Both the position numbers and the translations under genes were made by a program. Below are positions 5,860 to 31,622 of a stretch of DNA of 64,000 bases, in pieces (positions within the stretch are counted from its first letter, which is position 1; each line of letters opens with the position of its first letter). A model generated the notes under the pieces. It worked only from the letters and a program-made list of their open reading frames with translations, made no database searches and had not been told where the DNA came from. This DNA comes from Polytrichum commune (taxonomy: Eukaryota; Streptophyta; Polytrichopsida; Polytrichales; Polytrichaceae): the NCBI GenBank assembly GCA_950295325.1, contig OX485806.1, positions 57,469,169 through 57,533,168 of the forward strand. Direction: 5' to 3'.

Positions 5860-6837
5860 TGTCGCAACCCTTGCTAGCCCCCCCTGACAATCTTGCCAAT
5901 TTTCAATTCTAGCAAAGGTTACGAGCGCTAACCATTCGCATTCCACCATGCTAATGGTTAGCTCCTCCTACCCCGGACCATATAGCTCATATGAGGGAAC
6001 CAACCCTCCTACTTTGCTTTCGGGACTCACCCCTTAATCAGTAACCCAATCCTAGATGTGGACTTCCATCCATGGAAGTCCAATCCCATGTTGATTATCG
6101 CGTTGCCGAAGCAACACTAAAACAACCCGAACCATACTAGGCAACTATGGCCTCACATTGGGCGAATGCCCATGGAGGCCGTGCTGTTCGGCCTCGGGTG
6201 GGTGAGGCCACACCACCTCACCCATATAAGCCTCAAGGACTCTACGCTGGGCCCTTACTCCACCGTCAACCACCCTCTTGTCTCTCTACCAAGAGTTGGG
6301 GCCAAGTAGACAATTCCCCTTAGCTGCTGGGCCTAGAAGCCCCCCAGCAGCTTCAGACCATCATACCTTCCTTGTATGATTTCTGATGCTAACAAGCAAC
6401 CCCCCCCCCCATCTTCATCTACGCTTCACGTAGATGCCGATGGACTCCTCATGTGACCCATTCGGGCAAGTCTTGAGGAAGTTATGCCTGTTTGAACCTT
6501 GGCAGTCCCAGGAATCACTCCCAGGCATTGCTGTACCAGGGCGATGTCCCGGGACAGCGCCCCACTCAAATGGCCATAAGTCCTAGCTCACACCTCCGCT
6601 TGAGGTGATCTTGAGCATTCTAAAATCACCACGCCATGAGCTACGCATAGCTCATGGCCTTACCCTCATGCTTCCTAGTCTCCGTGGGTGGGAGGCGTTC
6701 TCAACGCCCGAGGCCCTCACCCACACTAGGATCACTTGGACCCTCTCACCAACGGCGCCACAAGTCTCGGGTGTCACTCCAGGGTCCCCCTTGTACCCAT
6801 GGTGTTTCGGGCACTCCTCATGGAGAGGTGCGCGACA
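5860..6837 (-). mobile_element. Family-A solo LTR, TSD CACTT
   Basis: 978-bp LTR, antisense, from TGTCGCAACC to GTGCGCGACA. CACTT is duplicated at 5855-5859 and 6838-6842. The uninterrupted version of the target exists at 45985-45993, where the same flank reads through with a single CACTT. This pair proves a 5-bp duplication and an insertion into the 3' non-coding part of copy A. Confidence 0.95.
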
Positions 6838-9923: not shown

Positions 9924-9981
9924 GTCCCCGCCATTTATCTATTCCAAGTTCAAGACATAGCCAATTAAGTCCAATTCCCCC

Positions 9982-10100
9982 GGGAAACTGAAGTATGTGA
10001 GCATAGCTCAGAGAGCGGAGAGCGGAGATTGGAGAGCGGAGATTTTCAAATTTGTTGGGTAATTATAGGAGAAGTCGTGCCTATTTCCGTGGATTTTAGT
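9982..10100 (+). repeat. MULE1 left terminal inverted repeat
   Basis: Terminal GGGAAACT, then repeated GGAGAGCGGAGATT, then a stretch containing TGCCTATTTCCGTGGA. It matches the inverted sequence of 57480-57613 in MULE2 and, more loosely, 27130-27336. Confidence 0.75.
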
Positions 10101-10570
10101 GATAGTTTGTCTTCAATTTGTCGGAAAGGCACCCCATTCCCGTGTAAATAAGAACCGAACTTTGTTCGGTGAACCAACCGAACCTATAAGCGTGGAAGAT
10201 AGTGTTTGTTATCAAACATCTTATAGTCTAGGTTTCGAATACGTTTATATTAAATTAGGGCTTACGTCATCAATTGAAGCTTAACACAAACATTAAAGCG
10301 GTATGGAATGTGGCCAAGAGTTAAAGTTGAACACAAACATTCAAACCATTCAAAGTCACTCACAACCTTACCATCTCTCAAGTACAACTGAAGAAGACAA
10401 CCTTCAAAGTATATTCAACCTGTCCACCCGAACCTATCTAGAGAATTGAAATCAAACACTAACGAACTTCAATGAGGGATTGAATAAGGTTTGCAAAAGC
10501 CACATAAAAATTCAAGAAATAAACTTATAAAGTAAAATCAATACAAACAAAATGGAGGTCCGAGGCGTAG
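10101..10570. other. Region between MULE1 left end and the cargo gene
   Basis: About 470 bases. The first 180 are homologous to the inside of the MULE2 right end (57340-57480, inverted). No gene was recognised; the rest is AT-rich and probably the 3' flank of the minus-strand gene. Confidence 0.55.
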
Positions 10571-11243
10571 TCAAGAACTAGGACTACCATGTCTATCACT
10601 ATCCTCGCCCTCCTCCGCTTCTACGTCTAAATACTCCTCTACTAGTTTGTTGAAAGGTCGGATGCGACTGGGAGGTGGAGACGGAGCTTCCGCCAAAAGA
10701 TTGGCAAGCCCGGCCGCATAGCAAGGGAGCTCAAATGTCTTGGAAGGACTCGAACTCATACATGCGTTCTCCCTTGGCGCTCTGAACCAAAAAGCAATAA
10801 GATTAGAAACAAGATGACACACGAAGATGGGAAAATCACTAGAAGGCAAACATGACAAAACATAGAAAGAAAACTTACACAAAGAAAACCGAATGCTCGT
10901 TTGGTCATCTTCTTAGGCGGATCAAACATAGAGGTGGACGGTGGGGCATTTGAGCGGGAGGGTTGCGAAGGTTGGTTTTCATGCATGGGGAGTAGGATCG
11001 CATTGAAAATCACTGGGTCACTCTCAAGGGCCACAATATGCCGCTCAATGAAGCGACACGCTGTAATTGAACCACCTACACCACAATGCCAGTCCATAAC
11101 AACATCATTCTTATCTGTGAGAGTAGCAAAAATGATAGAGAAGAAAACTTGATGCTTCTCGCGAGCACCTCTCCAGGGTATTCCATCACTGCGCATCGTC
11201 TGGCTCTTCTCATCGGTGAAAGCATTCAACCATCCATCTCGCT

Positions 11244-12218
11244 TGTCGCGCACCTCTCCATAAGGAGTGCCCGAAACACCATGGGCACAAGGGGGACCCC
11301 GGAGTGACACCCGGGACTTGTGGCGCCGTTGGTGAGAGGGCCCAAGTGATCCTAGTGTGGGTGAGGGCCCCGGGCGTTGGGAACGCCTCCCACCCACAAA
11401 GACTAGGAGGCATGAGGGTGAGGCCATGAGCTATGCGTAGCTCATGGCGTGGTGATTCTAGAATGCTCAAGATCACCTCAATCGGAGGTGTGAGCTAGGA
11501 GTTATGGCCATTTGAGTGGGGTGCTGTCCCGGGACAGCGCCCTGGTACAGCAGTGCCTGGGAGTGATTCCCGGGACTGCCAAGGTTCAAACAGGCATAAC
11601 TTCCTCAAGCCTTGCCCGAATGGGGCAAGCAAGGAGTCCATCGGCATCTACGTGAAGCGTAGATGAGGATGGAGTGGTTGGTTGTTATGATCAGACATCA
11701 TACAAGGAAGTTATGATGGTCTGAAGCTGCTGGGGGGGTTCTAGGCCCAGCAGCTAAGGGAAAATGTCCACTTGGCCCCAACTCTTGGTAGAAAGACAAG
11801 AGGTTGGTTGGCGGTGGGGTAGGGGCTCCGTGTAGAGTCCTAGAGGCTTATATGGGTGAGGTGGTGTGGCCTCACCCACCCGAGGCCGAACGGCACGGCC
11901 TCCATGGGCTTTGGCCCATTGTGAGGCCATAGTTGCCTAGTATGGTTCGGGTTGTTGTAGTGTTGCTCCGGCAATGCGATGATCAACATAAGATGGGACT
12001 TCCATGGATGGAAGTCCACATCGAAGAAATGGGTTACCGATTAAGGGGTGAGTCCCGAAAGCAAAGTAGGAGGGTTGGTTCCCCTCCTTTGAATTATATG
12101 GTCCGGGGTAAGAGGAGCTAACCATTAGCATGGCGGTATGCGAAGGGTTAGCGCTCGTAACCTTTGCTAGAAAGGAAAATTGGCAAGATTGCTAAGGGGG
12201 CTAGCAAGGGTTGCGACA
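11244..12218 (+). mobile_element. Family-A solo LTR in a coding exon, TSD TCGCT
   Basis: 975-bp full LTR, sense, TGTCGCGCAC...GGGTTGCGACA. TCGCT is duplicated at 11239-11243 and 12219-12223. It splits exon 11 of the methyltransferase-like gene; discounting the LTR and one TSD copy, the frame aligns with MULE2 copy 2 across the site. Confidence 0.97.
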
Positions 12219-13959
12219 TCGCTGGAGGTAGTAACCATACTCCTTGGCGGCCTCCGGTCGCATTTTCAGAACGGAGTTAACACGAATAAGAACCTTGATA
12301 CTGAATTTACGAGTCTGAAAAAATGAAAACGATTCCATAAGAATCGGAAGAAGAGAAATGAAAAAAAAAACAAAACAAAAATGAACTAGAAGAGGGATAG
12401 TTGCTTACCACTCCAGAGGGGTCCACCGGAGATTGGAGGTCCAAATCAGCCATACCGAACCAATCTTCGGCGACGTAGAAGTCGTAAGTGTGAGCCCAAT
12501 CGAAAATAAGCCTAGAAACACTTGCACTCGCACAATGGACAATAACAAGGACGTCATGATCATAGAGGTTAGATTTTGCAAAAGCAAAAAGACAGTCATA
12601 GTAAGAGTCATGGAGCTTGTTCCAATCAGGAACATCCGTGGAGATGTTGGGCACCGGCAAATTTTCGGGAATGTCCGCGAAGAATAAATCCAGTCCCTTG
12701 TGATGTGTAGAGGAGGTGTTCACACGGGAACGACCTTCCCCGGCCTGCAATGAAAAATCCATGAGAAAAAATGAAGAAGGAAAAAAAAACGCAAACCAAA
12801 TGGAAAGGAGTTTGATGAATGCCAATAAAAAACATACAAACATTGGCAATGAACTCTTGGATGTGCGTATATGCCGGGAGGGGACCTCCTGCAAGGTCGC
12901 AATCGAGCATGAGTTGTACCATGTCCACATTTTCGATGAGGAAAAACGTGGTAGGTGAATCCGAAGAGGTGGCACTCGTATCCAAGAGGGCGGCCTTCCT
13001 CTTGCGAGGCAAGGAGAGAAGAGAAGTGCCACTGTGAGAAGGAGTAGCAACAGTTGGTGGCCGACATGCGGAGGGAATGATAGAGGGGGCAGCTGATGGA
13101 GCAATGGAGGGAGTGCTAGGTGGACTTTGTAGTAAGGTGGGTGGCTGAACGGGGGTCTTTGAGGCGGACCGAGTTAATTGAGTGCCGGTATTCTTACCTC
13201 TGCCCTTTGCCTTGGGTGCCTTGGGCGGTGGAGGAGGAAGCTCAACGATGTCGGGCTCCTCATCCGGGACAATGTTCACCTCGGGAGCACTACGCACAAG
13301 GCTAGTAAAAGAGGTTTTTCTTCCGCAGGCACAAATCCTCCAGAACAATCCAAGTACCATCCCCCAGCTTGCAAGTGAGACTGCGGAAACTTGGCAACTT
13401 GATTGGGCGTAAAAACACAAAGATCGGAGTTGACATCGATCCAATGTAAAAGGAAAGTTGGCAAGCACGAAGAAGGCAATGCATTCTTCACAACGAGCTC
13501 ACGGTGAATGAACCTGAAAAATGAAGAACATGAGAAACAAAGACGGTGGGGAAAAGGAAATGAAACAAAAACAACATGTACTCAAAGAAAACTCAGAATA
13601 TTACCGGTAAGCGACGCGTTTGATTGATATGGGGTCGTCCCTAAAATCCATGAGATCAAGGCCTTTGACAAATTTCAGATCTCCCTTATCGTCAAAATAA
13701 ACCAAAAATGCCTTGTCCCAAAGAATCAGCCTCCAATGCTCAACATAATCTCCCGGTTGAAAAATATCTTCCGTGGAACTCCAATCGATTTCAACGGAAC
13801 ACACATTCTCAAATGAAGCAATCTCAGCCTCAACCCCCTTCTCCAACTATGACAGAAAAGGAAAATAGTAAGAAAAGAACAACTCAATAACCTACAAACA
13901 TGAACTTAGACTCTAGACACATAAAAAAAAACCTTAGACATGACAAAAAGACCGAGAGG

Positions 13960-16078
13960 GTGTCCCACTCATACCGAGAGGGTGTCCCAGTCAAACATTC
14001 TATATTTCTAAACAAGAAATAAACATATTAGCTGAATAACCTGATATCAGATTCTAGTGACGAGCCAAATAAATCCACATATGAGCACCACATATTAGCA
14101 TCACTTATGCACATTAGAAAACTGGACCGGGAAATCAGACCATATTTTCAAGTTCTCACCCAAAATGACCACAGTGACAAATTCTCAAAATTTGAAATTC
14201 CCTTATTAGCTAAATAAGCACAAATCAGATTCTAGTCTTGAGCCTCAAAACATACATTTCTCCACCCTATCGGAACCGAGAGGGTGTCCCGGTCCTACTA
14301 TAATGACCATTTTCTCAAATTTTGAAAATCAGAATTACCTATATGGGCTAAATAAGCACAAATAGATTGTAGTCATGAGCCATTAATTTCCACATCTCTC
14401 CACCCTCTCGGAACCGAGAGGGTGTCCCAGTCTAACCACCTAACCATATTTTGAACTTTTCAAAATGAACACTACCTAAATGGGCCCATTATCTATATGA
14501 CCATAACTTTTGAAAATCAGAATTACCTATATGAACTCAATATCCACATATCAGATTCTAGTCTTGAGAACCCAAATTCCACATCTAGGCACCCACTAAT
14601 ACCAAAATGACCTTAGTATCAAAACTTGAAATTCCCTTATTGGCTCAAGAAGCACAAATCAGATTCTAGTATTGAGCCTCAAATATATACATTTATCCAC
14701 CCGGTCGGAACCGAGAGGGTGTCCCGTCCTACTAGACTAACCATATTTTAAAGTTTGGAAACCTAAAATACCTATATTGGCTTCATAACCACATATCAGA
14801 TTCCAGTCATGAGAACCCCAAATCCAAATTTCGGAAAACACTAAAATAAAAAATGACCATATTTTCGAGTTCTGAAAATAAGAATTACCTATATTGGCTC
14901 AATATGCACAAGTCAGATTCTACTCTCGAGCCTAAGATTTCCACATTTCTCAACCCTCTCGGAACCGAGAGGGTGTCCCTGTCCTACTATTTTCACCAAA
15001 TTTTGAACTTTTGAAAATCAGAATTACATATATTGGCTAAATAATCACCAACCAGATTCTAGTCATGAGCCATTAATTTCCACACCTCTCCACCCTCTCG
15101 GAACCGAGAGGGTGTCCCTGTCTAACTATCCTAACCACAATTTCAACTTTGGAAAATCAAAACTACCTATATGGGCCCATTTTCCACAAATCAGATTTTA
15201 GTCATGAGCACAAAATTTCCACATTTGTCCACCCTCTCGGAACCGAGAGGGTGTCCCTGTCCTACTATAATGACCATATTTTAAACATTTAAAAATCAAA
15301 ACTACCTATATGGGTCAATTATCCACAAATCAGATTCTAGTGAATGGCCTCAAATTTCCACATTTCTCCACCCTCTCGGAAACGAGAGGGTGTCCCAGTC
15401 TAACTATCCGAACCATATTTTCAACTTTTGAAAATCTAAACTACCTATATGGTCCCATTATCCACAAATCATATTCTAGTCATGAGCCTAAAATTTCCAC
15501 ATTTGTCCACCCTCTCGGAACCGAAAGGGTGTCCCTGTCCTACCATTTTCACCATATTTTCATCTTTTAAAAACCAGAATTACCTATATTGGCTAAATAA
15601 GCACAAACCAGATTTTAGTCATGAGCCATTAATTTCCGAGAGGGTGTCCCAGTCTAACTAACCTAACCATATTTTGAACTTGTAAAAATCAGAACTACCT
15701 ATATGGGCCCATTATCCAAAAATCAGATTCTAGACATGAGCCTAATATTTCCATATTTCTCCACCCTCTCGGAACCGAGAGGGTGTCCCAGAATAACTAA
15801 CCTAACCATATTTTGAACTTTTGAAAATCAAAACTACCTATATGGGCCCATTATCCACAAGTCAGAATCTATTCTTGAGCCTGATATTTCCACATTTCTC
15901 CACCCTCTCGGAACCGAGAGGGTGTCCTAGTCCTTCTACAATGACCATGTTTTCAACTTTTGAAAATCTAAAGTACCTATATTGGCTCAATATCCACATT
16001 TCAGATTATAGTCTTGAGCCTAAGATATCCACATTTTCTCCACCCTCTCGGAACCGAGAGGGTGTCCTAGTCCTTGGT
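13960..16078. repeat. Palindrome array A (intron of the cargo gene)
   Basis: About 13 tandem units of roughly 140 bp. Each carries CCCTCTCGGAACCGAGAGGG or a one-sided relic of it. The unit continues GTGTCCC(A/T)GTC and a spacer with CTACCTATATGGGCCC and CAGATTCTAGTCATGAGCC. The array lies wholly between exons 7 and 8 of the minus-strand gene. Short open frames in it are repeat artefacts. Confidence 0.92.
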
Positions 16079-17974
16079 ATGAAGATTTCAAATAATAGAA
16101 AGAGGAAAAAAACAAGAGTTGCACCTGCGCCCAGAAAGAAGCTTTGTTGAGCCAGTTTTCGAGGACTTTCTCCCTAAGAGGGAGAGACGACGGAAATCTA
16201 TTATTTTCCTTGACATCGGCAGGGGAGTTCCACCAACGAAGCCACTTGGCCTTGAAATGGGCATCCACATGTGCGGTAGCCACCTTTTGAAGTTTTTCGA
16301 TTGTCATATCAGGGACGAGGAAGGTGGAGAAATGACGGTCAATCTGCCACATAGATATGAAGTAAGAATAGAGATAAGTAAGAAAGAGATATCAAGCACG
16401 ACATGATGTAAATGAGAATGAAAGAATAAATGAAAACACAAGGATAAGAGAGACACCTCGTTGAAGAAATCATCCTCGTTGTCCTTGTGGGCAACGGAAA
16501 TGAACTTCTCAAAGTTCCGAGAACGAATGCTTTTGATCAACCTATCCTGGGCTTTTGACATAATATCCCAAATTTCTGTCGAAGATCGGAGAGCCTCGGG
16601 AGTGGCCTCACGGTATAACCTCGCAGCCGTATCAGCCGCGTTGGATATCTCTCTCTGAAACAAACACAAAGAAGGATAAGGAACGCACATAAACATGGGA
16701 GAAGGAAAGTCAAGGAAAGTTTAAACAAACTTTACCTTGTATAAGAATTTGACGAAGACATCTAATGTCAGGGGATACCAAGTAAGAGTCTTCTCCATTT
16801 TGGACTCGCACATCTTGTAGTCCGAAACGGAAAGGAGGTCTTTGAACTCCTCTAGCCTCATCTTTCCAAACGTGCGAATGCGAAGTAACTTGACGGGGAG
16901 GTTATCCTTAGCATGGTCATGCTCCATGGACCTATAACAAACAAAATGTTAGAGGGAAAAATGAGAACAAACAAAAGAGAATATCAGCAACATTAAATGT
17001 TGAACTCACTAGTTGATGTCATTCATAGCATTAAGGAAGAGGGCGGTGCAATTTCTTGGATCCACCAAAATACAATCAGCCCATATATGCCAATCTTTGT
17101 CCAAAAGGTGATGCTTGTTGATGTGCCTCCACCAAGTTGTCAACCGAAGGTTCCCCTCCCACACGTAGAACATTTTGCCAACAAAGTTAGCAAGGTCGGG
17201 GTCTCTTTCGAGAATGGCATCAAACTCTGCATTGGCCTCTTGCCATAATGGACTCCAGGAGGACTTGACGTCATCGGAGACATGAAGGACCTCATCGAGG
17301 TTGTTATATAGAGAGATGTACAAAGCGCGGTCACCATCACGGTATCCCATGACGAACTCATTCTCCAAACGAGAAACATCAACGTCGTTGATTGGCCGAA
17401 CAAGAGGAAGACTCCGCAAGCGACACAATGGAATAGAGAAACGAGACTTCCCAAGAGGCTTGAATCGCACCCGCTGAATCACGGTGTTAGAGTCTTGCTT
17501 CTGCGATCTCCGAACCTTGAGCTCGGCTTCATCTGGATTCTCCTCATCAAGAGGTCGAATGCAGTCGGAAACAAGCGGAACATCAATCTACAAGAGAAGA
17601 GGAGGGAAGCATCAGAAAAAAACTATAAGACGAAACAAACAAGAAGCAGAGGCAAACAAAAATACAACAGAATTTCAACGAATCAAACACCTCTCCCTGT
17701 GAGATGTCATCCAGTGCCCTATGGCAATCTTCACGAGGCGACAATAGAATATGCCCATCCGCCATGTATTGGACACGCGCCACAGTAAGGGCCAAAGCCT
17801 GCGATGCCTGTATGCACAAAATACATCGAGATGATGCCCCAGTCCTTTTAGAAATGCACCCTTTAACCTTATACAACGCACTCCATACACATACAAATAA
17901 TCCATACACTTCAAACCTAGCCTATTGAATCCGAAAATCTGAAATAAGAATAGAGTGAAGAGCCCATATAAACA

Positions 17975-19935
17975 CCATTTCTCCACCATCTCGGAACCGA
18001 TAGGGTGTCCCTGTCCTACTAAAGTAACCTTAAACCACATATATGATTCTTGTGATGAGCCTAGAAATCCACAATTCTCCAGCCTCTCGGAACCGAGAGG
18101 GTGACCTAGTCTAACAAACCAGACCATATTTTCAACTTTCGGAAATCAGAAATACCTTTAAAGGCTATATAACCACATATAAGATTCTAGTGTTGGGCCT
18201 CAAATTTCCACATTTCTCCCCCTCTAGGAACCGAGAGGACATACACGCAGTCTAATTAATTCAAAACTAACTACATGGGCCCATTATCCACAAATCAGAT
18301 TCTAGTCATGAGCCTAAAATTTCCACATTTCACCACCCTCTCGGTTCCGAGAGGGTGACCATGTCCTACTATAATGACCATAGTCTGAACTAATGAAAAT
18401 CAAAACTACCTATATTGGCGCATTATCCACATTTCAGATTCTAGCCATGAGCCTAAAAAGTCCACATTTCTCCACCCTCTCGGAACCGAGAGGGTGTCCC
18501 CTTCCTACTATAATGACCATATTTTGAGCATATGAAAATCAATACATCCTATATTGGCCCATTATCCAAAAATCATATTCTATTCATGAGCCTAAAATTT
18601 CCACATTTCACCACCCTCTCGGAACCGAGAGGGTGTCCCAGTCTAACTACCCTTACCATATATTCAAATTTTGAAAATCAAAACTACCTATATGGGCCCA
18701 TTATCCACAAATCAGATTCTAGCCATGAGCCTAAAAAGTCCACATTTCTCCACCCTCTCGGAACCGAGAGGTGTCCCCTTCCTACTATAATGACCATATA
18801 TTGACCATATGAAAATAAATACATCCTATATTGGCCCAATATCCACAAATCAGATTCTAGTCATGAGCCTAAAATTTCCACATTTCTCCACCCTCTCGGA
18901 ACCGAGAGGGTGTCCCTGTCCTACTATAATGACCATATTTTGACCATATGAAAATCAAAATACCTATATGGGCCCTCAATCCACATTTCAGATTCTAGTC
19001 ATGAGCCTCCAAAATCCACAAATCTCCACTCTCTCGGAACCGAGAGGGTGTCCCTGTCCTACTATAATGACCATGTTTTAAACATTTAAAATTCAAATCT
19101 ACCTATATGGGCCCATTATCCACAAATCAGATTCTAGTGAAGGGCCTCAAATTTCCACATTTCTCCACCCTCTCGGAATCGAGAGGGTGTCTCTGTCCTA
19201 CTATAATGACCATATTTTGACATTATGAAAATCAAAACTACCTATATGGGCCCGTTATCCACAAATCAGATTCTAGTGAAGGGCCTCACATTTCCACATT
19301 TCTCCACCCTCTCGGAACCGAGAGGGTGTCCCAGTCTAACTATCCTAACCATATTTTCAACTTTTGAAAATCAAAACTACCTATATGGTCCCATTATCCA
19401 CAAATCAGATTCTAGTCATAAGCCTAAAAACTCCACATTTCTCCACCCTCTCGGAACCGAGAGGGTGTCCCTGTCCTACCATATTGACCATATTATCAAC
19501 TTTTCAAATTCAAAACTACCTATATGGGCTCCATTCCCACATTTCAGATTCTACTCTAGAGAACCCGACATCCACATTTCGGCACCAACCTTCTCCTAAT
19601 CTGACCATTTTTTGAACTTTCGAAAATCAGAAGTTCGAATATATGCTCTATAAGCACAAATCTGATTCTAGTGACGAGCCTCAATAATCCAAATTTCGAA
19701 TCAAAACTACCTATATTGGCTCGATATTCACATATCAGATTCTAGTCATGAGAACCCAACATCCACATTTCGGCACCCACTTCTCCTAATCTGACCTTAT
19801 TTTGAACTTTCGAAAATCAGAATTTCATATATTTGCTCAATAAGGACAAATCTGGTTCTAGTGATGAGCCTCAACAATCCACATTTCTCCACCCTCTCGG
19901 AACCGAGAGGGTGTCCTTGTCCTACCATGTTGACC
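17975..19935. repeat. Palindrome array B (intron of the cargo gene)
   Basis: About 13 units like those of array A, in the intron between exons 2 and 3. One unit near 18340 has the centre TT instead of AA, that is, the opposite polarity. The last part (19560-19860) keeps the spacer but has lost the palindrome. Confidence 0.92.
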
Positions 19936-20327
19936 ATATTATCAACTTTTCAAATTCAAAACTACCTATATGGACTCCATATCCACATTTCAGATTCCAG
20001 TCTTGAGAAATCAACATTCAGAATATCACAAGTAGACATGCACCTGAGAATCCAGAACTTCCAACCTCTCACGAATGCGCTCCTCCTTGCTTCGGCCGGC
20101 ATATAGTGGAGGCGCCTCCGAAGACTAATCTAGGTTAGACTCAAGGGTTCCTTGGTGTGGTGGATGGTTCCTAGGAGCTAGAGGAATCTGGATACTTTGG
20201 CCTATGTACCTCACCCCAAAATGGTATGGGCCGAAAGCCTATGTCCTATGTGCCGTGTTTGGGAGGTGGCGGCCCCGCACAACTTCGTGCTTAGCTTATA
20301 GCCTATTCGTGGTGCATAATTTTTGAC

Positions 20328-20349
20328 CCTCTCGGTTCCGAGAGGGTTT
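20328..20349. repeat. Isolated palindrome copy in intron 1
   Basis: A single CCCTCTCGGTTCCGAGAGGG outside the tandem arrays, within intron 1 of the minus-strand gene and about 500 bases from its start codon. It may be an array relic or a lone functional site. Confidence 0.85.
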
Positions 20350-20859
20350 GGTTCTATATTCCCCTCTAACCAACTTAAACAAAATAAGAACTTCCAATAT
20401 TTCACATGTTGGTCGTTAAGAATCACATTACATAACTCAATATCAAATTCCATCTTTTAAATATCCTAAATGTATATATGAGCCTAGTGCGTAATACGCT
20501 AAACCCAAACTTACTGTGCCAATTGAGTCCTCTTCTATCTCCTCCTCAGATTCGCTTGAATCCGAATCGCTTCGATGCTCGCTCTCTCCCATCGATGGTT
20601 CGCGCGATCCACTCTGCTCCCGTTCTTCCTCTATCCGTTCCAATTCCTCGTTCCTGCTAGACGTCCATGTCTCTGCTTCTCCCCCCGTCTTGCTCAAATC
20701 TGTTGGTGGTTCACTTCCCTGTGTACAAGATTGCTCCTTCTTCCTAAGCTCTCTCCGTCGCCTCTGCTTTGAATTGCTAAAACTCGTCCCTCCCTTTCTT
20801 TTCTTCCTCTTCCTTCCAGGATCGACTGTGGAGACTTGACTATTTCCTCGTTCCTTCAT

Positions 20860-21182
20860 GTGTGCGTCCCGGCGTCCCAATAATCGTCTCTCTCCTATAC
20901 TCTTCTATTAGGGCATCGCACTCACATAATAACTCGTTCCTTTGCTTGTATTGTTCTTTATATTGCCAGTGCTTCAGGGTTAGGGTTTCCCTCTTTTTGG
21001 CAGCCATCCCTTGTTTTCCCTTTTTGGCATCCTCCCCCTACTCCTTTTTTATATACATTAGTTCCTCGAATTCTGTTCCTTCGGTGATGCACATGGTGAC
21101 ATCACAACGTTTGTCTTCACCATTCTTCTTCCTTATAAATCTTTGCATCTTTGTTCATTTACGTTTCTGTTTTTTTGCCTTC
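20860..21182. promoter_or_regulatory. Divergent intergenic region of MULE1
   Basis: About 320 bases between the two predicted start codons (20859 minus, 21183 plus). It must hold both promoters or 5' untranslated regions if the assigned starts are right. It is pyrimidine-rich on the plus strand. I cannot point to a definite TATA box. The plus frame stays open upstream to 20862, so the transposase could start earlier. Confidence 0.45.
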
Positions 21183-22640
21183 ATGGCTTCCAGCTCAATG
21201 GCCGAACTTCGTTCCAATGCCAACGATGTCCCTATTCTCTTCCCCATTGGTGCACAGGGTATTGCTGTTGTCTCGGAGCTTCATCTTAGCGTTAGGTTCT
21301 CTCTTCAAGTTAATACAATATGGGTAGATCGTGAGATCTTCAATGATATTGGATTGCTCGTTCATACATTCCATGAGCCCTCCAAGGTAACTAACAATGG
21401 CAATGTAGTGTGGGAGCTTGGCGCAGGAAAGTATAGGGTTTGGGGCTGGCCAGATTCTCGGATGGGAGTGTCAACAGAACTCCATGCTCCTCTTCGATCT
21501 TCCACTGCTGACTTTAGCACACCTCCGGTAGTAAGTGTTAAGACCGAGCCTGACATAGACAACGTTGTAGACTTGTCTGATTCTTCGACTGAAGATGTAT
21601 CTATGAGGAAGGTTGATGTTCATGATTCCCCTCCTTTGTTTCCCTCTGATTCCTTTGTAACGCCTTCACCTTCTCGCTATGTTCCTTTATCTCCTTCCGT
21701 ACCGTCTACGTCCAAACCTCCTCCACCTATTGTTCAATGTCTTCGTCGTCTAGGTTCTATACTCGGTAGTAAAAGCGTCCTCAAGAAAATAGATTACGAT
21801 AAGATCAAAATCCAAGAGGTTAATCACCTCCCCCCTCGTTTCGATGGTACCCAGTTATTTGTCCTCCCTGCACCAGAAGTCTCTTCATGTCTTTCCAGGG
21901 CCAGGTCCATGGACGGCATGGACAAGCAATATGATGGCCATGTTTGGACGAAGACTCAGACCACCAACATTACAAACGACGTTGGCCTTCTATTTCGTTC
22001 CTCTACCTGTGTTGGCCATCTCCAATGCCAAAACACTTGTTGTGATTTCCTTCAACGCGCCCATCGTATCTCTCATGTCAACGACACGGAATTTGATGGT
22101 TTCACTACTCAGCCTTTCCCTCTCTCTGGCATTGTGCCATCCGGATCTACTCTTGTGTGCAAGATCTGCAAACAGCCTCCCAAATGCATTGCATTTTGCG
22201 AGGCGAAGATTTTCTACGTCCATGGGAAGAATTTCTCCCAAAGAGCCTGCATTCATATCGGAAACCATCAACATCCAGTGAAGGTTGGGGACTGCAGAGA
22301 CAGTCGGAAGCGCATCAATGCTCTTCTCGAGGAGCACGTTGAGCGTACGCCTCAGGCCACGTACAGCAAGATCATCCTTGACGCCAGCAAGGACATTGTT
22401 GGTGAGTTCCTCCTTTCTGAAAATAGTGAGAAACATCGTCTCCTCTCCTTAACAGAGCTCGAACCTGTGTTTGAGAGCTGTAGAGGGTTGAACTCCCCAA
22501 ACCTTCGATCTAAGGTTACCTCTTTCAAATTTTTGCAGAGGTTCGGTGTTATGGATGGCATCGCAAAGCTCCGAGGCGTTAGCAATTGGGCCTACGTCCA
22601 ACGGAACCAATTCTCAGGACAAGGTCACGATGCCGACAAG

Positions 22641-23869
22641 GCAAGGTTGTCTATTGTGTCGTGACGGAGGGTAATCCTGGCATAATGTCGTGCCGTCACG
22701 ACACGTATCCGTCATGACATTATGCCGGATGTTGTCTTTATCCTGACGGACTTGAATTTTACAGATTTTTTTGTGTAATTACATTAACCCAATTCGGACA
22801 CGTAGGATTTACAATGTCCACGTGTGATGACATGTCAGCAAAGTAAAGGTAAAGTGGGGAAAAATTTACTAGAGCCCGTCCGCCCCTGTTCCCGACCCCG
22901 TCCGCTCCGCTCCCAACCCCGTCCGCTCCGCTCCCAACCCCGTACGCCCCGTTCCCAACCCCGTACGCCCCGTTCCCCCCCGTCCGCCCCTCCGTCCGCT
23001 CCCCCGTCCGCCCCAGTTTTTTTTTTTTTTTTTTCCCCCCCCCCTTCCCCGTCCGCCCCAATTTAAAAAAAAAATTCCCCCCCCCTCCGTCCGCCCTCGT
23101 TCCCGACCCCGTCCGCCCCCGTTGCCGACCCAGTCCGCTCCGTTCCCAACCCCGTACGCCCCGTTCCCCCCGTCCGCCCCGTTCCCCCCCGTCCGCGCCC
23201 CGTCCGCCCCTCCATCCGCTCCCCCATCCGCGCCCCGTCCGCCCCTCCATCCGCTCCCCCATCCGCGCCCCGTCCGCTCCCCCATCCGCTCCCCCATCCG
23301 CCCCAGTTTTTTTTTTTTTTTTTTTTTCCCCCCTTCCCCGTCCGCCCTATTTTTTTTATAAAATAAATCCCCCCCCCCGTCCGCTCCGTTCCCAACCTCG
23401 TACGCCCCGTTCCCCCCCGTCCGCCCTCGTCCGCCCCAGTTTTTTTTTTTCTCTTCCCCGTCCGCCCCATTTCAAAAAAAAAAAATTCCCCCCCCCCCGT
23501 CCGCCCCCGTTCCCAACCCCGTCCGCTCCGTTCCCCCCCCCATTCCCACCCCCGTTCCCGACCCCGTCCACTCCGTTCCCCCCCCCACCCTCGTCCCCCG
23601 TCCGCCCCACACCCTCCTTAGTCGTTTTTTACTACTTTGATTTTAACAAAATGGTAAACAAAATGGCAAAATGATTTACCTGGCGCTAGGCATATCCACG
23701 ACCACGTCGGCGTTTTCTGCCACATAGGACGCCACCTTGGCAAGAAGGTAAGTATTTTACCCACCCTAGTCCGTTCCCCCTATGCTGACCCTACGTGGAC
23801 CCTATTTGTCGTGACGGAGGGGTCCGTCACGGCACGACACCGTCATGACGTCGCGATAGACAACCCTGC
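22641..23869. mobile_element. 1.23-kb TIR element inside the transposase gene, TSD GACAAG
   Basis: The left end GCAAGGTTGTCTATTG and inverted right end GCAGGGTTGTCTATCG agree, and both continue into a GTCGTGACGG / CCGTCATGAC motif. GACAAG is duplicated at 22635-22640 and 23870-23875. Element plus one duplication is 1,235 bases; skipping them restores the transposase frame (D-A-D-K then V-F-V-F-K). No transposase of its own, so it is non-autonomous. The superfamily is not clear: a 6-bp duplication is uncommon in plant DNA transposons. Confidence 0.88.
22870..23615. repeat. C-rich minisatellite within the TIR element
   Basis: Irregular tandem repeats of CCGTCCGCCCC, CGTTCCCAACCCCGTACGCC and similar, separated by three T-runs of 15-20 bases and A-runs. 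The minus strand is G-rich with many G3-G4 runs and could form quadruplexes. Long open frames on the minus strand (Gly/Arg-rich) are composition artefacts. Confidence 0.9.
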
Positions 23870-26233
23870 GACAAGGTGTTCGTCTTCAAGATGTCCGAGG
23901 TTGGTCCTGGAAGCGGGGTGGATTTGGTTCGTCGGATGCAACCGGGTGGGGACCTTGAGAACGCCTGGATTATGTCCGATCACGTCAAGCGGGTCAAAGG
24001 GTGGACCACCATGGCCACTCATGTCTACGATGGGACTTATCAACGGGTCATGACCATTTCATGTTGTGATTTCCAATCGGAGGATAAGGATGCCCAAGTG
24101 CTCTTCTAGCAGAACCTCAACCATGTCATGGCCCGCCACGGTATCCCGCATCCTAACTTTATTGGCTTCATGGCGGACAGTGCGCAAGCCAATTGGAACG
24201 CTGTGCGCATTGTGTATGGTTCAGGAGATCCCAAAGTTCCTATGGAGGGCCGTGAGCGCACTTGTTTTTTCCATTGGAAACAGTCGCTCGAGAAACATAC
24301 GAAATCCTACATAAAGCATGAGTTACAAGACCAACATAGACACCTTTGCCTTCAATATCGCAATGCGTCCTCTATGGCAGAGGCGGAGACTAGGTACCTA
24401 GCTATCAAGTCTTGGTGGGCATCATCGAATTGTACAAGTGAGGACGGTCTCAAGCACCTCCAGCTATGGCTTGCTTTCTGGCACTTCCGCTACCTTCAAT
24501 GGGGTGGTTTCATGGAACTGGTAAATCCCCTTCATGATTCATAATTGTCTTTTACTAGATTTAGTTTCCTCTCTATGTGCTCCCTCTAATACTCCCTCTG
24601 CACTCTCCAATCAGGAAAAGGTTCTGACTCAAGACCAGTTGGCCGAGATGCCGTCGTGCAATCTTGCGGAGTCCGTCCACAACAAGTGGCTTCAGGCCTC
24701 GGGCAACAAGGGTGGAGATTTATACGTGGCTACGGTGGACGACTACATTTGCGCCTTCCTACAAGTTGTTGCATACTACACATTCCTTAAAGGTGGAGTT
24801 GGCGGAGATGGTCCAAGCAAAGAGGAACTCAAGCTCAGGGGTGCTCAACGTCGAGCTCAGCGTACTGGCGACCCCACAGTGTTGCAGAAGGTCTTGCTCG
24901 ACATGCCCGGTGGGGAAGAGTTTTGCACTCGCGATCCACACCTTGAGGGCGCCGAGGTGTTTGGATCGCAGAAACGAAGACCTGATACTCCAATTGGTGA
25001 TGATGGCGAGACCCACCGCCCCGATACCGTGAACTTCTCACGCCCTCGTCCCGGTAAGCGAGTCACTCGATCTCAGCCAGAAATCCTACCTACTATCATT
25101 GAGGAGTGTTCCCCGTCTGTACAAGAGGTTCAAGTGCCTTCACCTGCAGGATTTGGTTTCCATCGTGTCACCGCAGTGCAAGAAACCAAAGTAGATGTCT
25201 CTCTTTGGCATATTGCCCGCATACCCTATACATCAGGGAAGTCTTGTTGGGCTAATCATGCGGGCACGAAGAAGAAGTGCTCTGCAAGAATCGTCACCAA
25301 TAATAAGAGCGTCCCTGCGCCTATCTACACCGGTATGTGACATCATTACAAACTCCAATCGATGAAGCGCACGGACTTCGTCTTCTGCCCCGACGACATA
25401 GAGCGTTGCGTAAAGGGCCCTCGTCGGAAATGGGTCATGCCGTTCTCTGATGGTCAAGAGAAACCTCCCATTCCCCCAATCTGGCCTGTCAAGATTGGTA
25501 CCAACCTCACCCGCTCGGAGATCTTCGCACTTGAGAACGCAGGTTTTCAACTCCCACCAAAGGAGCGCATCACACCGACTCGACTCTTCACCAACTCCGC
25601 TCCCCCACTGGATATGTCTGGAATCCGTATTCCGGAATTTCCAGACTTCATCCCTCCGACAAGATTGTCCAAGGTTGTTCGGCGATCCAGCAGCGCACCT
25701 TCTGCGAAGCAGAGGCAGATGGTTGCCTCTGCTGAAGCTATGCATGGTACTGTTTTGAAGCTAATTATGATCCCTCAACCGGGATTTGGCTGCATTATCA
25801 CACTGCAGTCCAAGTCAGAACCCCAACCCCCCATATACCAGGTGACAATGAGTTCTTATCCAGAGTGCAATTGCGCGAACTTCGTGGATATGATTTCCAA
25901 GTTCGGCCGCAAACGCAATCCTTATCAGAATTGTAAGCATTTGTATTACATCTTCATCAAGGTTTCCAATTTGGATCCGGAAGTGAATTTGTTCATTCAC
26001 GCCCCGACATTTAGCTTCAACGAAGTCAAACTCATCCTCGAAGGGGGTCTTTTGACACAACCTACTTCCTAGAATTCCGCTCAGCCTAGCACTACATTAG
26101 GCTATGATATATGTGTCCATTTATGGACCAACCCTAAACCAATAATTGATTGATATAATAAAGGTATAATCTCAATGATTATTTTTATTTACTTCAAAAA
26201 TTTGTATCACAATGCTTCCTATGTCTATCAATT

Positions 26234-26701
26234 CTATTTCCGATTTGCATACTTCTTGGATAATTCCGATGGAGGTGGACCCGGTCGAAGCAAATCCCTA
26301 TAAGATACTGTTTTGTCTCTAATTCGATCCTTCAGCGGAAGATGATGCGGAGGCAAGGCTCTCATCCTTTGGCGTAATGAAAGAAACTTCGAAGATTCGC
26401 CTTCCACCTTCACCTCCTGGTCCGTTTCCTTCGAATTGTCTTCATCCAAATCAGCGTCCTTCTCCGGCACATCTTCCTGCCTTTGTTCTTTTTTCTCATA
26501 TTGTTTCTGCTCCTCCTGCACCCTCCACCTCCATGCTTGTGTAGACTGCAAAAATGGAGTCAGGTCGTAGTCATCACTAGCTCGATTTCCAGGCCTAAAC
26601 TCAAATTCCGGTGATGAATTAACGGGAATATGGAGATCTCCTAGACTTCTAATTTCCTTCTCCCACCCTAATCCAGCAAACATGTCTCTCTTTTCTCCCA
26701 T
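26234..26701 (-). CDS. Unrecognised charged protein near the MULE1 right end
   Basis: 155-codon open frame, start ATG at 26699-26701 (M-G-E-K-R-D-M-F-A-G-L-G-W), stop at 26234. The middle is rich in Glu, Asp, Gln and Lys and could form a coiled coil. The end has L-K-D-R-I-R-D-K and Y-R-D-L-L-R-P-G-P-P-P. No signal peptide or membrane segment. It converges on the transposase gene and lies inside MULE1, so it may be a third element gene or a captured fragment. No family recognised. The frame is uninterrupted, but expression is unknown. Confidence 0.4.
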   Translation of the reverse strand: MGEKRDMFAGLGWEKEIRSLGDLHIPVNSSPEFEFRPGNRASDDYDLTPFLQSTQAWRWRVQEEQKQYEKKEQRQEDVPEKDADLDEDNSKETDQEVKVEGESSKFLSLRQRMRALPPHHLPLKDRIRDKTVSYRDLLRPGPPPSELSKKYANRK

Positions 26702-26722
26702 TATGTGCAAGTGTATATACAA

Positions 26723-27129
26723 TCATGGTGGATATGAGTCCAATTTATAGTCTATTCAGCCACAAACAATAATTGCTAAAGTCCAACCTATAGAATAGAC
26801 TCACATATAAGATAAAGAAAAAATGATGAATAACAACAAAGGAAGTTTATTATTTTGATTCCTTTGTATTTTGATTGACCCATTCTTCATTTATACCAAT
26901 CTCAAAAGATCCAATTTCATTGATTATTCCTTGTAATCATCCTTGGTTTTAATAATTCTTCAATTATACCAACTTCGATATACTTATTTTTGTTTGTTCT
27001 TTCTTGGGATCACCATTGATGTTTATCATATACTTATACGTTTTATTTTGATGCTATTTCATTGTAGCACTTCCCGGGTCCGAAATGTAGTGAGACATTT
27101 TCAAATATAGGGCCTTTTGAGTTAGATGT
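26723..27129. other. AT-rich MULE1 segment, nothing recognised
   Basis: About 400 bases between the small gene and the right terminal repeat. No gene, repeat array or RNA gene was seen. Confidence 0.5.
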
Positions 27130-27336
27130 GGACCTATACATTCCACGGAAATAGGTCACTATTTTTGCTATTTTTAGCAGATTCTAGAATATTCGAAGCA
27201 TATTCTAGACTATTTTTTAAAAATCTAAATTTGGTCTTAAAAGTTTGCTAAATTTAATCACTCAATGCTCTCCGCTCTTCACATCACCGCTCTAAGCTCT
27301 TCGCTCCCCGCTCTACGCACACGTACAAGTGTCGTC
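27130..27336 (-). repeat. MULE1 right terminal inverted repeat
   Basis: Contains TTCCACGGAAATAGGTCA (matching the left end inverted) and repeated CTCTCCGCTCTTC, CCGCTCTAAGCTC and CCCCGCTCTACGCAC motifs. It ends ACAAGTGTCGTCC next to the duplicated CAATTCCCCC. More diverged from the left end than MULE2 is. Confidence 0.7.
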
Positions 27337-27696
27337 CCAATTCCCCCTTAAGGTATTTATGCAATACGAAAGGTGTCATCGAGGACACCCTGGCCATAGA
27401 ACAGGCAGAATTGCTACATTAAATGGCAATTCTCATTGAGTATTTGATACAACGTGTAATTAAATGGCAACTACATTGAGCATTTGATTTAGTGCGGCCC
27501 ATACTATTCATCATCGATCCACGTTAATTGTTTTGTAACCATTGGGTGGGGACTTGAGAGGGTGTCATGACACTTGGTGAAGACCAATCTAGTCAACATG
27601 GCACATCAATTTTAATGCCACAATAACCTCAATGTTTAGTGTAGTCAATACAACTCTTCAGACTTTAATCTACCTAAAAAATGGGAATTGAAATAC

Positions 27697-28013: not shown

Positions 28014-31000
28014 TCACTCCTCCTCCGATGTGTAATATTCTGTGTCGCTATCATCTACCTCATCTACATCATGCTCGGCAACCAGGTTCACTACCCACTG
28101 AGCATCGGCCACCTCCTTTGCGGTGAGGTGTCGTGTCCCAAGGTTGGGGGCGACTGTATATGCATAATCCTCTACAATTGGTTCAGGCTCTCGGACAATG
28201 AACTCTGGGTCGTCTTCAGTCGATCGGTGGATATCCTCCCCTTCAAACTCTACACGTCTTGCCCGTGGGGTGACATTTAATACTGCAACCCACTCAGTTG
28301 ATTCTGGGCATCTAGAAAAGAACACTTGATTGACCTGTGTAGGAAAAACAAATGAATTAGGACCTACACCTTCAATCCTCCCTATTTTCACTAAAGTGAA
28401 CCCAAACTCGTCCTTCTTCATAGTAGCGTTGGGACCCAGCCATACAGGTTCCACCCACTTGCACTTCATTATACACGGCCTTAAGGTTCCATAATCCAGC
28501 ACAAAAATGTCTTGCAATTTCCCTACAAAATGAACCTTCCCTGTCCTAGGGTTCATGTCCCTGGCATTGTTCTGAGATACTGAATCAAAAATGCCTGCCA
28601 CACCACAGTTCATTGTTTTCCTTGATGTTTCAGCATCCTCGCATCTGTAGTAGTTGCCAAAATAGTACATAGCCTTATGACTGGTTGCAAAGCTAGAGGG
28701 GGGGTGTGAAAGGGCTATGACATCAAAGTCATATGTCAAGTCGGGGTACTGCCTCTCTTCCACCACGCGACGGATCCAGCTGCTTAATCTGGGAAACGCC
28801 CGCAAGTGTTCTGGAAATCTCCACCTTCGCCTCAAACAAGCAGGTACACTTAGACGCCACAACCTTCTTGCCTCGTTGTGACTTGCTTCAACCTCCTCGT
28901 GTTTCCTGCTTGTTCACAATAATATAAGTCAACCACACTATTCCACATTACTAAAATGCGCAACATTGAGGCCAACATATTATACATCCACACTATTAAT
29001 CATGTTTAGGCCAAACAATATAGTGACACGGTTAATGTTGCAACACTTACCTTCGGAAAGGCTCCATGCACAAACTGTTCATGAGCACATGTGTGTGACA
29101 CCAGTCCCGATCGTTGCCACTTAACACCACCTTCCTCCCAGATCCACATAATATCTCTGAATTATCCCGATCCTCCTCCATGTCATCCCATACCCGTCTG
29201 GACGTTGATTTGAAATTCTGCATGTACTTGTACATAAACCCAAAGACACTTCTATTGCATACCCCCTTCCCATAGAGCCTTCGGGTTTCGCTTTATTTCT
29301 GACATATCCTTTTAGGACCTTCATGTAATGTTCCATCGGGTACATCCACCGGCCATAAACTGGTCCACAAATATCTACTTCTTCCACAAGATGAATTAAT
29401 AAATGGGTCATTACGTCAAAGAAACTTGGAGGAAATTCCTTCTCTAGTAGACATATAGTCAGCGCGACTTCTTCATATAAGGCCTTATACCCGTTCGGGT
29501 CTATGACCTTTGCACATATCTTCACAAACACCCTGCTTAGTCTCATCAATGCTAACTTGGGCCCTCGTTGTAAACAGTTTCTTAGACAAAGTGGCAACAA
29601 CTGCTGCATGATGACGTGGTAGTCGTGAGACTTAAGACCATGCAGGGTACCATCATCATCGATGCGACGCCCAAACGTTGAGACATAACCCGATGGGGTT
29701 TTCAAACTCCTAAGTATGTGTATGACTCCTTCCCGTTCCAACTCTGTTAGCACATATGATGCATGGGCCTGGTCGACCCCATCAGCTTCCTGGTCTCCTT
29801 CCTTAATCCACAAGTGCTCCCTTATGTTCTGGCTCTCCATATCCTTCCTCGATGCTGGTGTGTCTTTCTGTCCGAAAAGGGTGCGTATCACATTTTCGCT
29901 CAAATTCTTCTCGCAATGCATAACATCCAGGACGTTACAGATCAAGAGATGCTGCACATACACAAAATTTAACCCAACCAAATTGTTCTTAGTTTAGGTT
30001 TTAATGCAACGAGTACTCTAATTCACGGATTTAATGTATCCCCTATAGTGTTCATGTACATGCATACATACAATTGGCTTGGACAATAAAGCTACTCACC
30101 CGCCAGTATGGGAGATTAAACAGAACGCTGCGCCTCTTAACCCCATGTTGTTTTGCTGGGTCATTGTCGGCTCCTTCGCGACCTCCAGAATCCAACCACC
30201 TAGACTTTGATAGGCCTCTCCTCTCTACAACATGGCCTGGTACTCGCTCCGGAGCAGCCCTACTCTCTGGATACCCGTTGAATGCAGCTCGCAATCATCT
30301 GTAAGGATGGTTTTCTCTCAAATGCCTTCTATGGCCCATAAATTTTATTTTTTCAACTCTACAGAGTATCGAGAATCCACTGCTGGACCACATACTGGAC
30401 ATCCCTTATAGCCTTTCACGGCACATCCTGACACTAGGCCGTATGCAGGGTAGTCATTTATAGTCCACAATAGAATAGCACGCAAGATGAACCTATCAGG
30501 GTTTGGTCCTATACCTATATCTATTGTTGGTACGCCTACCCACAAAGATTGCAACTCTTTCACCAAAGGCTCTAGATATACATCTATGTTAGAGGAGTTG
30601 CAACTCTCTCGTCCTGGTATCAATATACTCATCATAACAAAAAATCTTTTCGTAGTTAACCAAGGAGGTAAATTGTAGTTTAATAGAAGTATGGGCCACA
30701 CTGAGTACCTCAATGACATGTCTGAAAACGGGTTCATCCCATCCAACGCCAAGCCCAAATGGATGTTCCTGCTTTCTACTTGAAATGTTGGATCTAGAAG
30801 ACTTACATGAGCCCATGCTTTTGAGTCAACAACTGACCTTACCAATCCATCTGGGCTCTTGTGTGTTGCGTGCCATTTCATCAATGTTGAAAGTTCAGTA
30901 CATCTGTACATTTTCTGCAATCGTGGTATTAGTGGAAACCATCTCATAACTTTTACGGGTATTGATGTGGACCCTGGTATATACCTAGAATCCCCACATT

Positions 31001-31622
31001 TAGAGCAACACTCCAAATTGGCAGTTTCCTCCCAAAACAAAATACATCCTCTACCACAAACATGTATGCTCTTAAAGGTCAAGCCTATCTTCTCAAGATA
31101 TGACCAACATGCGTATCTTGAACCAGGCATAATGTTATCTCTGTGCAACACATCCTTTTTTAAAAACGAAAACAACTCATCCATGAATGCATTTGGCACG
31201 CCATGCACGTGTTGCAAACTCATCATCACCAATTGGAACCCCAACTTGCTTATCGTACACCCTGGAAACAATGGCAGCATTGCCTCCTCCAATAATGTGT
31301 CTCGCAAGTCATCATTGGGCACCACATTGTTCCCTGGATTTGCGGCATGCGACTGTGGACCTATGCCCGGGTCTCCCATTTCATTTTCAAAACCTGCTCT
31401 GTTCGGGATGAACTGATCCTCCATGACTCTTGCTCGTAGACCATCTGCCATCCCAAAAAATTCTGATATCATCCGCTCCAACTCAATACCCTCATTCATC
31501 ATGTGCGGCTCAGGGTCACACACATTGTCAACATTGGCATGCACATCCGCTTGTTGTATGTCGTCCTCCGAATCTGAGCTTCCAGGCTGCATTAAACAAT
31601 CAAATGCATTGTGGAGTCCCAT
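28014..31622 (-). pseudogene. CACTA TNP2 transposase
   Basis: Three exons: 30100-31622, 29051-29951 and 28014-28905, with matching phases, about 1,106 codons. Exon 1 contains the transposase_21 (TNP2) core: L-G-L-A-L-D-G-M-N-P-F, Y-N-L-P-P-W-L, I-D-V-Y-L-E-P-L-V-K-E-L and A-I-L-L-W-T-I-N-D-Y-P-A-Y, then C-P-V-C-G. Exon 2 has L-D-V-M-H-C-E-K-N and the DUF4218-type region ending in the Y-P-M-E-H-Y-M-K-V-L-K segment. Exon 3 has DUF4216-type sequence (Y-Y-G-like F-G-N-Y-Y, C-K-W-V-E-P-V-W). Breaks: one base missing in an A-run near 30344, TGA at 30295-30297 and one base missing near 29240. The usual N-terminal part may be absent. Divergent from the TnpA-like gene. Confidence 0.9.

Follow-up and report, generated by a model that had tools for sequence, protein, structure and literature searches.

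A Mutator-like element of Polytrichum commune with a methyltransferase-like second gene and arrays of a CpG-bearing palindrome

What might a Mutator-like transposon gain from a second gene that reads opposite its transposase and encodes a methyltransferase-like protein? This question is raised by a 64,000-nucleotide stretch of Polytrichum commune DNA (assembly GCA_950295325.1, contig OX485806.1, positions 57,469,169 to 57,533,168; the window), which holds a Mutator-like element (MULE) of 17.4 kb, MULE1, and part of another, MULE2. The second gene of MULE1, gene 2, is spliced and has been kept by purifying selection. Its introns contain tandem arrays of a CpG-bearing palindrome, ACCCTCTCGGNNCCGAGAGGGT, and the same motif is arrayed beside gene 2 in MULE2, which represents a second old subfamily. 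In our analysis the whole is best explained, if tentatively, by a gene 2 protein that would bind the palindromes and counter the silencing of the element.

A two-gene element

MULE1 is bounded by an exact 9-bp target-site duplication (TSD), AATTCCCCC (Table 1), within the 8–11 bp given for MULEs (PMC6446971; published work is cited here and below for the accessible portions of each text). It also has terminal inverted repeats, as do many MULE families; these are imperfect, and one end is common to MULE1 and MULE2. The end-anchored score of the repeats was equalled in one of 500 shuffles and one of 500 random pairs of places. This bears out the inverted ends of the initial annotation, which had been made from the letters alone and described a giant MULE carrying a ParB-methyltransferase-like cargo gene. 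The same annotation took an 11-bp direct repeat, CCAATTCCCCC, for the TSD. That 11-mer is exact and occurs twice in the 64 kb, at the two ends (9971–9981 and 27337–27347), but the 9-bp duplication fits the ends better: with 9 bp both ends start with GGGA and the end match is best, and we replaced the longer repeat by the shorter. Since CCAATTCCCCC has four occurrences when one mismatch is allowed, against 2.53 expected, it is not rare by itself, and its weight comes from its position at both ends.

Compared with the MULE2 end, the left 500 bp of MULE1 are 81.6% identical across 267 columns; the right 500 bp have no second copy within the window. The two related ends (9982–10481 and 56458–57596) share approximately 80–82% identity over stretches of 267 and 170 columns, despite the saturation of synonymous sites in gene 2 described below, so they seem to have been constrained or exchanged. 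Short AGAGCGG repeats were found at the left end by sequence analysis, and at the right end and the MULE2 end by eye.

The transposase gene is broken, and it may be of the MULE type, going by its DGTY motif, second Asp, CxxH and SWIM-like motif, recognised by eye. The SWIM finger of the initial annotation stands as a by-eye CxC...CxH motif (25866–25940) in a plus-strand frame, whereas Pfam returned no MULE, KDZ or SWIM match for the transposase; the superfamily assignment therefore rests on the TSD, the ends and the motifs. In-frame stops are found at 24107–24109 (TAG) and 25338–25340 (TGA), together with a hAT-like insertion of approximately 1.2 kb. The insertion contains very C-rich tandem CCCGTCCGC repeats (22875–23601) and has an observed-to-expected CpG ratio of 1.33, compared with 0.61 for the window. 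Between the transposase and the right end, a highly charged open frame of 155 residues (26234–26701, minus strand), starting with MGEKRDMFAGLGWEKE, has no Pfam match at E 0.01 and may be a third gene of MULE1.

Gene 2 is the divergent multi-exon gene that the initial annotation saw on the other strand. All eight introns between exons 1 and 9 have GT..AG borders (splice sites chosen by eye), and the frame is maintained through these exons except for a TAG at the exon 4/5 junction; the junctions of the three further exons were placed by eye only. The exon lengths give an estimate of ∼1,200 residues for the protein. Besides the TAG, the lesions of the MULE1 copy are a frameshift in exon 9 and, in the methylase exon, an insertion resembling a long terminal repeat (LTR; 11244–12218, 975 bp, flanked by the 5-bp repeats TCGCT on the plus strand). 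The LTR-like repeat (TGTCGC...GCGACA) is present in six near-full copies that are ∼90–93% identical, plus partial copies. With its TSD, inverted ends, plus-strand transposase and minus-strand spliced gene, MULE1 is supported as a Mutator-like element with a second gene, as initially proposed. It is a dead copy of a two-gene element, and the only one in the window in which transposase and gene 2 lie together between the same ends.

Of MULE2, the window contains a single end together with gene 2 from exon 8 onward, the 3′ half of the gene. The MULE2 comparison covered the window from MULE1 onward, and the part before MULE1 was compared for the transposase only; transposase homology was found on neither side of MULE1 in the window (best E 0.071, over 13 residues). 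The second copy reported in the initial annotation is thus confirmed for these parts and lacks a transposase match. Four premature stops of MULE2 were compared with MULE1, and all resemble C-to-T or G-to-A changes (by eye). Between the MULE2 palindrome array and the end, a stretch with a sub-threshold F-box match (Pfam E 0.026; 56667–57200, plus strand) is possibly a captured host gene. A third fragment, initially placed near 63228, is present at 63212–63751 and amounts to a piece of one exon.

Over 376 aligned codons (compared under working exon labels 10–14, which denote pieces of exons 9 to 12), gene 2 of MULE1 and MULE2 differs at 71% of synonymous sites (pS 0.71) and 19% of nonsynonymous sites. 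The ratio of nonsynonymous to synonymous divergence (dN/dS) is 0.10, with the synonymous distance saturated, and the exon 9 fragment of the third copy agrees, with ratios of 0.17 and 0.23 over 34 and 56 codons. From the disparity between the two classes of sites, gene 2 has been maintained by purifying selection for long in both lineages. Captured genes are frequent in MULEs (PMC6446971, PMC13317346), and gene 2 could on that precedent be cargo in the manner of Pack-MULEs, without function for the element. With so low a dN/dS between two anciently split copies, and with palindrome arrays going together with gene 2 in both, such an origin seems very improbable to us.

The palindrome arrays

The palindrome ACCCTCTCGGNNCCGAGAGGGT was not mentioned in the initial annotation. 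Its 20-bp core has 42 sites at up to two mismatches, 25 in MULE1 and 17 in MULE2, and none in 100 shuffles. All 25 MULE1 sites lie in gene 2 introns 1, 2 and 7 (1, 13 and 11 sites, respectively) and none in the transposase or the ends. Of the MULE2 sites, four immediately precede exon 8 on its 5′ side, and the other 13 fall between gene 2 and the end of the element. The spacers of the MULE1 and MULE2 arrays are largely different, which indicates that the arrays are not recent copies of each other; the palindrome is common to both. A second motif, ACCAnATTTTnnACTT, follows 19–20 nt downstream of the palindrome. Between arrays B and E it agrees at 13 of 16 letters, a match attained by 1 of 200 shuffles; its sharing between arrays B and C is less clear (12 of 16 letters, attained by 5 of 200 shuffles). 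The exact 22-bp palindrome is absent from viral and genome contig collections, both poor in plant and algal DNA, and Rfam gave no match in the window at the gathering score.

The main alternative to gene 2 as the source of a palindrome binder is the transposase, and the subterminal repeats of En/Spm offer a comparison. The palindromes would then be internal binding sites for the transposase or a recruited host factor, and gene 2 would have some other job. The occurrence of arrays in both elements, the ACCAnATTTTnnACTT motif and the dyad symmetry would suit any element-encoded DNA binder. However, none of the 25 MULE1 sites is near the ends, and the left end has short AGAGCGG repeats of its own. 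We consider binding by the transposase or a host factor unlikely.

Conservation was assessed from 54 palindrome-like places at up to five mismatches; 53 of these (25, 10 and 18) entered the substitution counts, with the place at 12971 left out, and 51, in five groups, entered the window-conservation test. Mismatches to the consensus are rarer in palindromes than in spacers in array A (5/220 versus 194/1309, p 4e-9), array B (9/259 versus 248/1546, p 2e-9) and array E (40/359 versus 322/2120, p 0.04), where the palindrome counts are rounded table sums. Among the 20-column windows of arrays A, B and D, the palindrome ranks first in conservation. Because choosing sites by the palindrome itself biases this test, we repeated it for arrays A and B with an anchor in the spacer, dropping anchor matches closer than 41 bases. 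Among 30 monomers found in this way, 22 have the palindrome at up to two mismatches, none has it at three to five, and eight lack it, one of the eight retaining a half-site. Mismatches then amount to 39/511 in the palindrome versus 560/2939 in the spacer (p 1e-11). In these two arrays the palindrome is mostly kept near perfect or lost. Since the monomers share ancestry, the p values of all these tests overstate the evidence.

Outside the palindromes, four array stretches have observed-to-expected CpG ratios of 0.17, 0.27, 0.34 and 0.19, versus 0.61 for the window, and TG plus CA are in excess; the pattern is as long cytosine methylation would leave it. Each palindrome carries two CpGs. In MULE1, 0 of 100 palindrome CpG nucleotides show a transition and one shows a transversion, whereas MULE2 has 11 transitions and 8 transversions in 112 (p 0.0009 for transitions). 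Judged by these substitutions, the palindrome CpGs of MULE1 would have been held either by selection or by protection from methylation, and MULE2 seems to have lost this hold or to be older.

Some of these features would also be expected of an ordinary intron satellite in which the palindrome persists through hairpin-promoted slippage or because the arrays are young. Perfect palindromes form a stable hairpin (−9 kcal/mol as DNA; none of 200 shuffles as stable), the introns of dead copies are free to expand, and the palindrome window is not specially conserved in arrays C and E. Nevertheless, the MULE1 spacers are ∼15–19% off consensus while most palindromes are near perfect, one palindrome recurs in two subfamilies with largely different spacers, and its CpGs persist amid CpG depletion. 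A satellite origin thus appears improbable to us.

The gene 2 protein

The C-terminal part of gene 2 is related to beta-class DNA methyltransferases, which supports the methyltransferase-like label of the initial annotation, albeit for a degenerate domain. The methylase piece of MULE1 gives weak but concordant matches, all on the S-adenosylmethionine (SAM) motif: CcrM in NCBIfam (E 0.0026), a PHROG (E 0.0038), DpnA among the PDB sequences (E 0.024) and N6_N4_Mtase in Pfam (E 0.21). Our own profile, built from nine phage methylases (Rofo, which gene 2 matches weakly at E 1, and eight found with Rofo), scores MULE1 at 14.4 bits and MULE2 at 9.0 bits, values reached by none of 2000 shuffles of each. 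Like CcrM- and DpnA-type beta-class enzymes, gene 2 has the SAM-binding motif I after the catalytic motif, and it has the FAD-P context: the segment DLIFADPPYNL of CcrM (PDB) aligns with DLFFADIPENL, an alignment that is not significant alone. Unlike these enzymes, gene 2 places the domain within a protein of ∼1,200 residues and has lost the catalytic DPPY, which reads DIPE in MULE1 and DVPE in MULE2. As far as the sequences tell, both lineages have lost the catalytic site, and the methyltransferase is probably inactive.

If gene 2 encoded a working modification enzyme, methylation of the element's DNA on or close to the palindrome would protect the element, and the retained SAM motif and beta-class motif order would be accounted for. 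Such an enzyme would have parallels in the Sola1-1 protein of Ectocarpus, predicted to make N4-methylcytosine (4mC) or N6-methyladenine (6mA) (PMC12477816), and in the Dam-like methylases of DIRS retrotransposons (PMC5890265). With D[IV]PE in place of DPPY in both copies, in a stretch that is under purifying selection, methylation by the gene 2 protein is unlikely, and we give an active enzyme little credence. The suggestion that the cargo protein may act on the DNA of the element gains weight from the palindrome arrays.

For exon 4, which had been labelled ParB-like, no ParB match was found in Pfam, PHROGs, NCBIfam or the PDB sequences; tblastn searches gave a best E of 0.1 against phages, in unannotated stretches, and no match against plasmids. 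Exon 4 also went unreported by a profile built from seven phage ParBs of the P1/N15 type, which did report 1042 of 2000 shuffles. In a control, four of the seven were made into a profile, and this recovered all three held-out ParBs at E 1.7e-25 or better; both profiles represent one ParB type, P1/N15. A search for relatives of exon 4 among viral contigs, which are poor in plant and algal DNA, returned five pattern matches, none of them confirmed.

The ParB guess nevertheless has an algal precedent. The 21.5-kb Sola1-1 family of Ectocarpus encodes, opposite its transposase, a ParB-like plus N4/N6 methyltransferase protein; similar proteins are cited for green and red algal transposons, and it is suggested that they bind and modify their own transposon (PMC12477816). 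Like these systems, MULE1 is a large DNA transposon whose second protein, with an N4/N6 methyltransferase domain, is encoded opposite the transposase, and the second protein of Sola1-1_Ec32 (∼1,100 residues; PMC12477816) is in the same size class. Because place, size class and C-terminal domain agree, we think that the gene 2 protein is probably a diverged relative of the algal accessory proteins, likened to them by description only. It differs from them, on the same descriptive comparison, in its Mutator-like ends and TSD, undetectable ParB part and lost DPPY. Moreover, palindrome arrays fill the gene 2 introns, whereas the accessible part of PMC12477816 mentions no such arrays for Sola1-1. 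The cargo had been called a non-standard component; this claim is weakened, as the cargo type itself is not new and is known from algal transposons. Relatives of gene 2 may be known under other names.

The features of the window are collected in Table 1. Apart from them, we noted a CACTA-type element at 28017–31628 on the minus strand (Transposase_21 and DUF4218, with a sub-threshold DUF4216) and 24-bp tandem repeats of the GCAACAGTAATCCAGCCCTTAGTC kind at 1258–1530 and 3003–3366.

Table 1. Coordinates of MULE1, MULE2 and associated features (positions in the window)
Feature	Position	Strand	Remarks
MULE1	9982–27338		Whole element including nested insertions; 9-bp TSD and matching GGGA ends
Left TSD	9973–9981		AATTCCCCC
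Right TSD	27339–27347		AATTCCCCC
Left terminal inverted repeat	9982–10041	+	Contains short AGAGCGG repeats
Right terminal inverted repeat	27279–27338	−	
Transposase gene	21183–26072	+	Broken; MULE motifs by eye
Nonautonomous hAT-like insertion in transposase	22642–23868		CARGGTTGTC ends, 8-bp repeats CGACAAGG; classed by eye
Gene 2 exon 1	20515–20859	−	Charged N-terminus
Gene 2 exon 2	20044–20124	−	
Gene 2 exon 3	17691–17807	−	
Gene 2 exon 4	17010–17587	−	Initially 'ParB-like'; not detected as ParB
Gene 2 exon 5	16736–16931	−	Junction with exon 4 reads TAG
Gene 2 exon 6	16457–16654	−	
Gene 2 exon 7	16125–16343	−	
Gene 2 exon 8	13605–13846	−	
Gene 2 exon 9	12842–13513	−	Frameshift near 13290; low end by eye
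Gene 2 exon 10	12409–12744	−	DIPE replacing DPPY at 12664–12675; ends by eye
Gene 2 exon 11	10879–12314	−	SAM motif at 11017–11094; split by LTR-like insertion; ends by eye
Gene 2 last exon	10571–10781	−	High end by eye
Array A	14265–16062		Intron 7; 139-bp monomers; 11 palindromes (≤2 mismatches)
Array B	17986–19911		Intron 2; 139-bp monomers; 13 palindromes (≤2 mismatches)
Single palindrome	20327–20346		Intron 1; perfect
Array C	49576–50300		Directly 5′ of MULE2 exon 8; different 139-bp monomers; 4 palindromes (≤2 mismatches)
Arrays D and E	53201–56324		3′ of MULE2 gene; E monomers 123 bp; 3 and 10 palindromes (≤2 mismatches)
MULE2 gene 2	50344–52897	+	Exon 8 onward; premature stops and LTR remnant
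MULE2 terminal inverted repeat	57515–57613	−	Approximate limits
Third copy	63212–63751	−	Fragment of exon 9 only
LTR-like 975-bp repeat copies	2037–3002, 5860–6837, 11244–12218, 44118–45113, 46437–47408, 48602–49575		

A possible anti-silencing device

The closest parallel in layout is found in the VANDAL elements of Arabidopsis, which likewise belong to the Mutator superfamily, have a second gene beside the transposase and carry tandem motif arrays in introns (PMC5735166). In VANDAL21, the accessory protein VANC21 binds a motif that forms tandem repeats in the VANC and VANB introns, and lowers methylation (PMC5735166); such VANDAL noncoding regions attract RNA-directed DNA methylation (PMC10398659). 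MULE1 likewise has a short motif repeated in tandem within its noncoding DNA. Its motif is a CpG-bearing palindrome as opposed to YAGTATTAY, and anti-silencing is only proposed here. In Pfam, neither DUF1985 nor DUF287 matched the joined exons 1–9 as far as the frameshift, the remainder of exon 9, the last exon or the methylase part. The VANDAL21-like layout together with the lack of a VANC domain leads us to think that a comparable device, using a ParB-methyltransferase-type protein, may have evolved.

Other mobile elements offer partial parallels. MuDR (mudrA/mudrB) also combines a transposase and a second gene in one Mutator element; it differs in that a methyltransferase-like second protein or a palindrome array is not mentioned for it in the accessible part of PMC6446971. 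The accessory open reading frames tabulated there for MULEs include none of the gene 2 type, and the word 'methyltransferase' is absent from its main text; the accessible main text of a review of gene capture in plants (PMC13317346) contains neither methyltransferase nor ParB. DIRS retrotransposons, with a Dam-like methylase, and Symbiodinium retrotransposons, with DNMTs, resemble MULE1 in carrying a methyltransferase domain (PMC5890265), but they are retrotransposons, and the accessible part of that paper mentions no palindrome arrays. In the accessible portions of the open-licence literature, we found no report of such a protein in a Mutator-like element, of the DPPY loss or of the palindrome arrays.

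In the explanation that we tentatively prefer, the gene 2 protein, or a complex containing it, would bind ACCCTCTCGGNNCCGAGAGGGT as a symmetric dimer. The palindrome would have been amplified through tandem duplication in gene 2's own introns and, in MULE2, beside gene 2. Dense binding would keep the noncoding DNA of the element unmethylated and the element expressed; the result would be sequence-specific anti-silencing in the manner of VANC, achieved by a protein that shows no VANC domain. We infer three of its components, namely the kinship to the algal proteins, the binding of the motif by the gene 2 protein and the blocking of silencing by that binding. The fuller proposition is that anti-silencing evolved independently in this MULE, from a ParB-methyltransferase-type protein that gave up catalysis for a role as reader or blocker and from CpG-bearing palindromic operators spared methylation-driven decay. 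We regard it as conceivable, if on balance doubtful.

Several observations weigh against palindrome binding and anti-silencing by gene 2. The evidence comes from two copies, both dead, in one window, and the motif data are almost as compatible with binding by the transposase. Relative to the gene, the array beside exon 8 runs in one direction in MULE1 and in the other in MULE2 (by eye). Arrays C and E contain 19 and 20 other windows, respectively, out of 82 that are at least as conserved as the palindrome; counting gaps as differences makes the palindrome window of arrays A and B unexceptional, since 38 of 77 windows then score equally low or lower; and among the 72 palindrome CpG nucleotides of array E, 8 show transversions. 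With regard to the protein, gene 2 has no recognised DNA-binding domain, and ParB, which would help explain palindrome binding, went undetected. The methylase piece of MULE2 reaches just 9.0 bits in our phage profile and has no match in Pfam, the only library given it. Structures predicted for exon 4 and the SAM-motif part, made with no alignments, are unusable (predicted local distance difference test scores of 37 and 43).

In the literature that we found, as far as accessible, VANC of Arabidopsis is the one transposon protein whose sequence-specific anti-silencing has been worked out, and for the algal ParB-methyltransferase proteins the binding of their own element is a proposed role. If our explanation is true, MULE1 joins the VANC and algal cases and adds a candidate target, a palindrome repeated within the introns of gene 2, with CpGs that persist despite the CpG loss around them. 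Motif-array anti-silencing would then have arisen more than once, in this case from a DNA-modifying enzyme turned reader, and one protein with one palindrome would make a simple system for a test in vitro.

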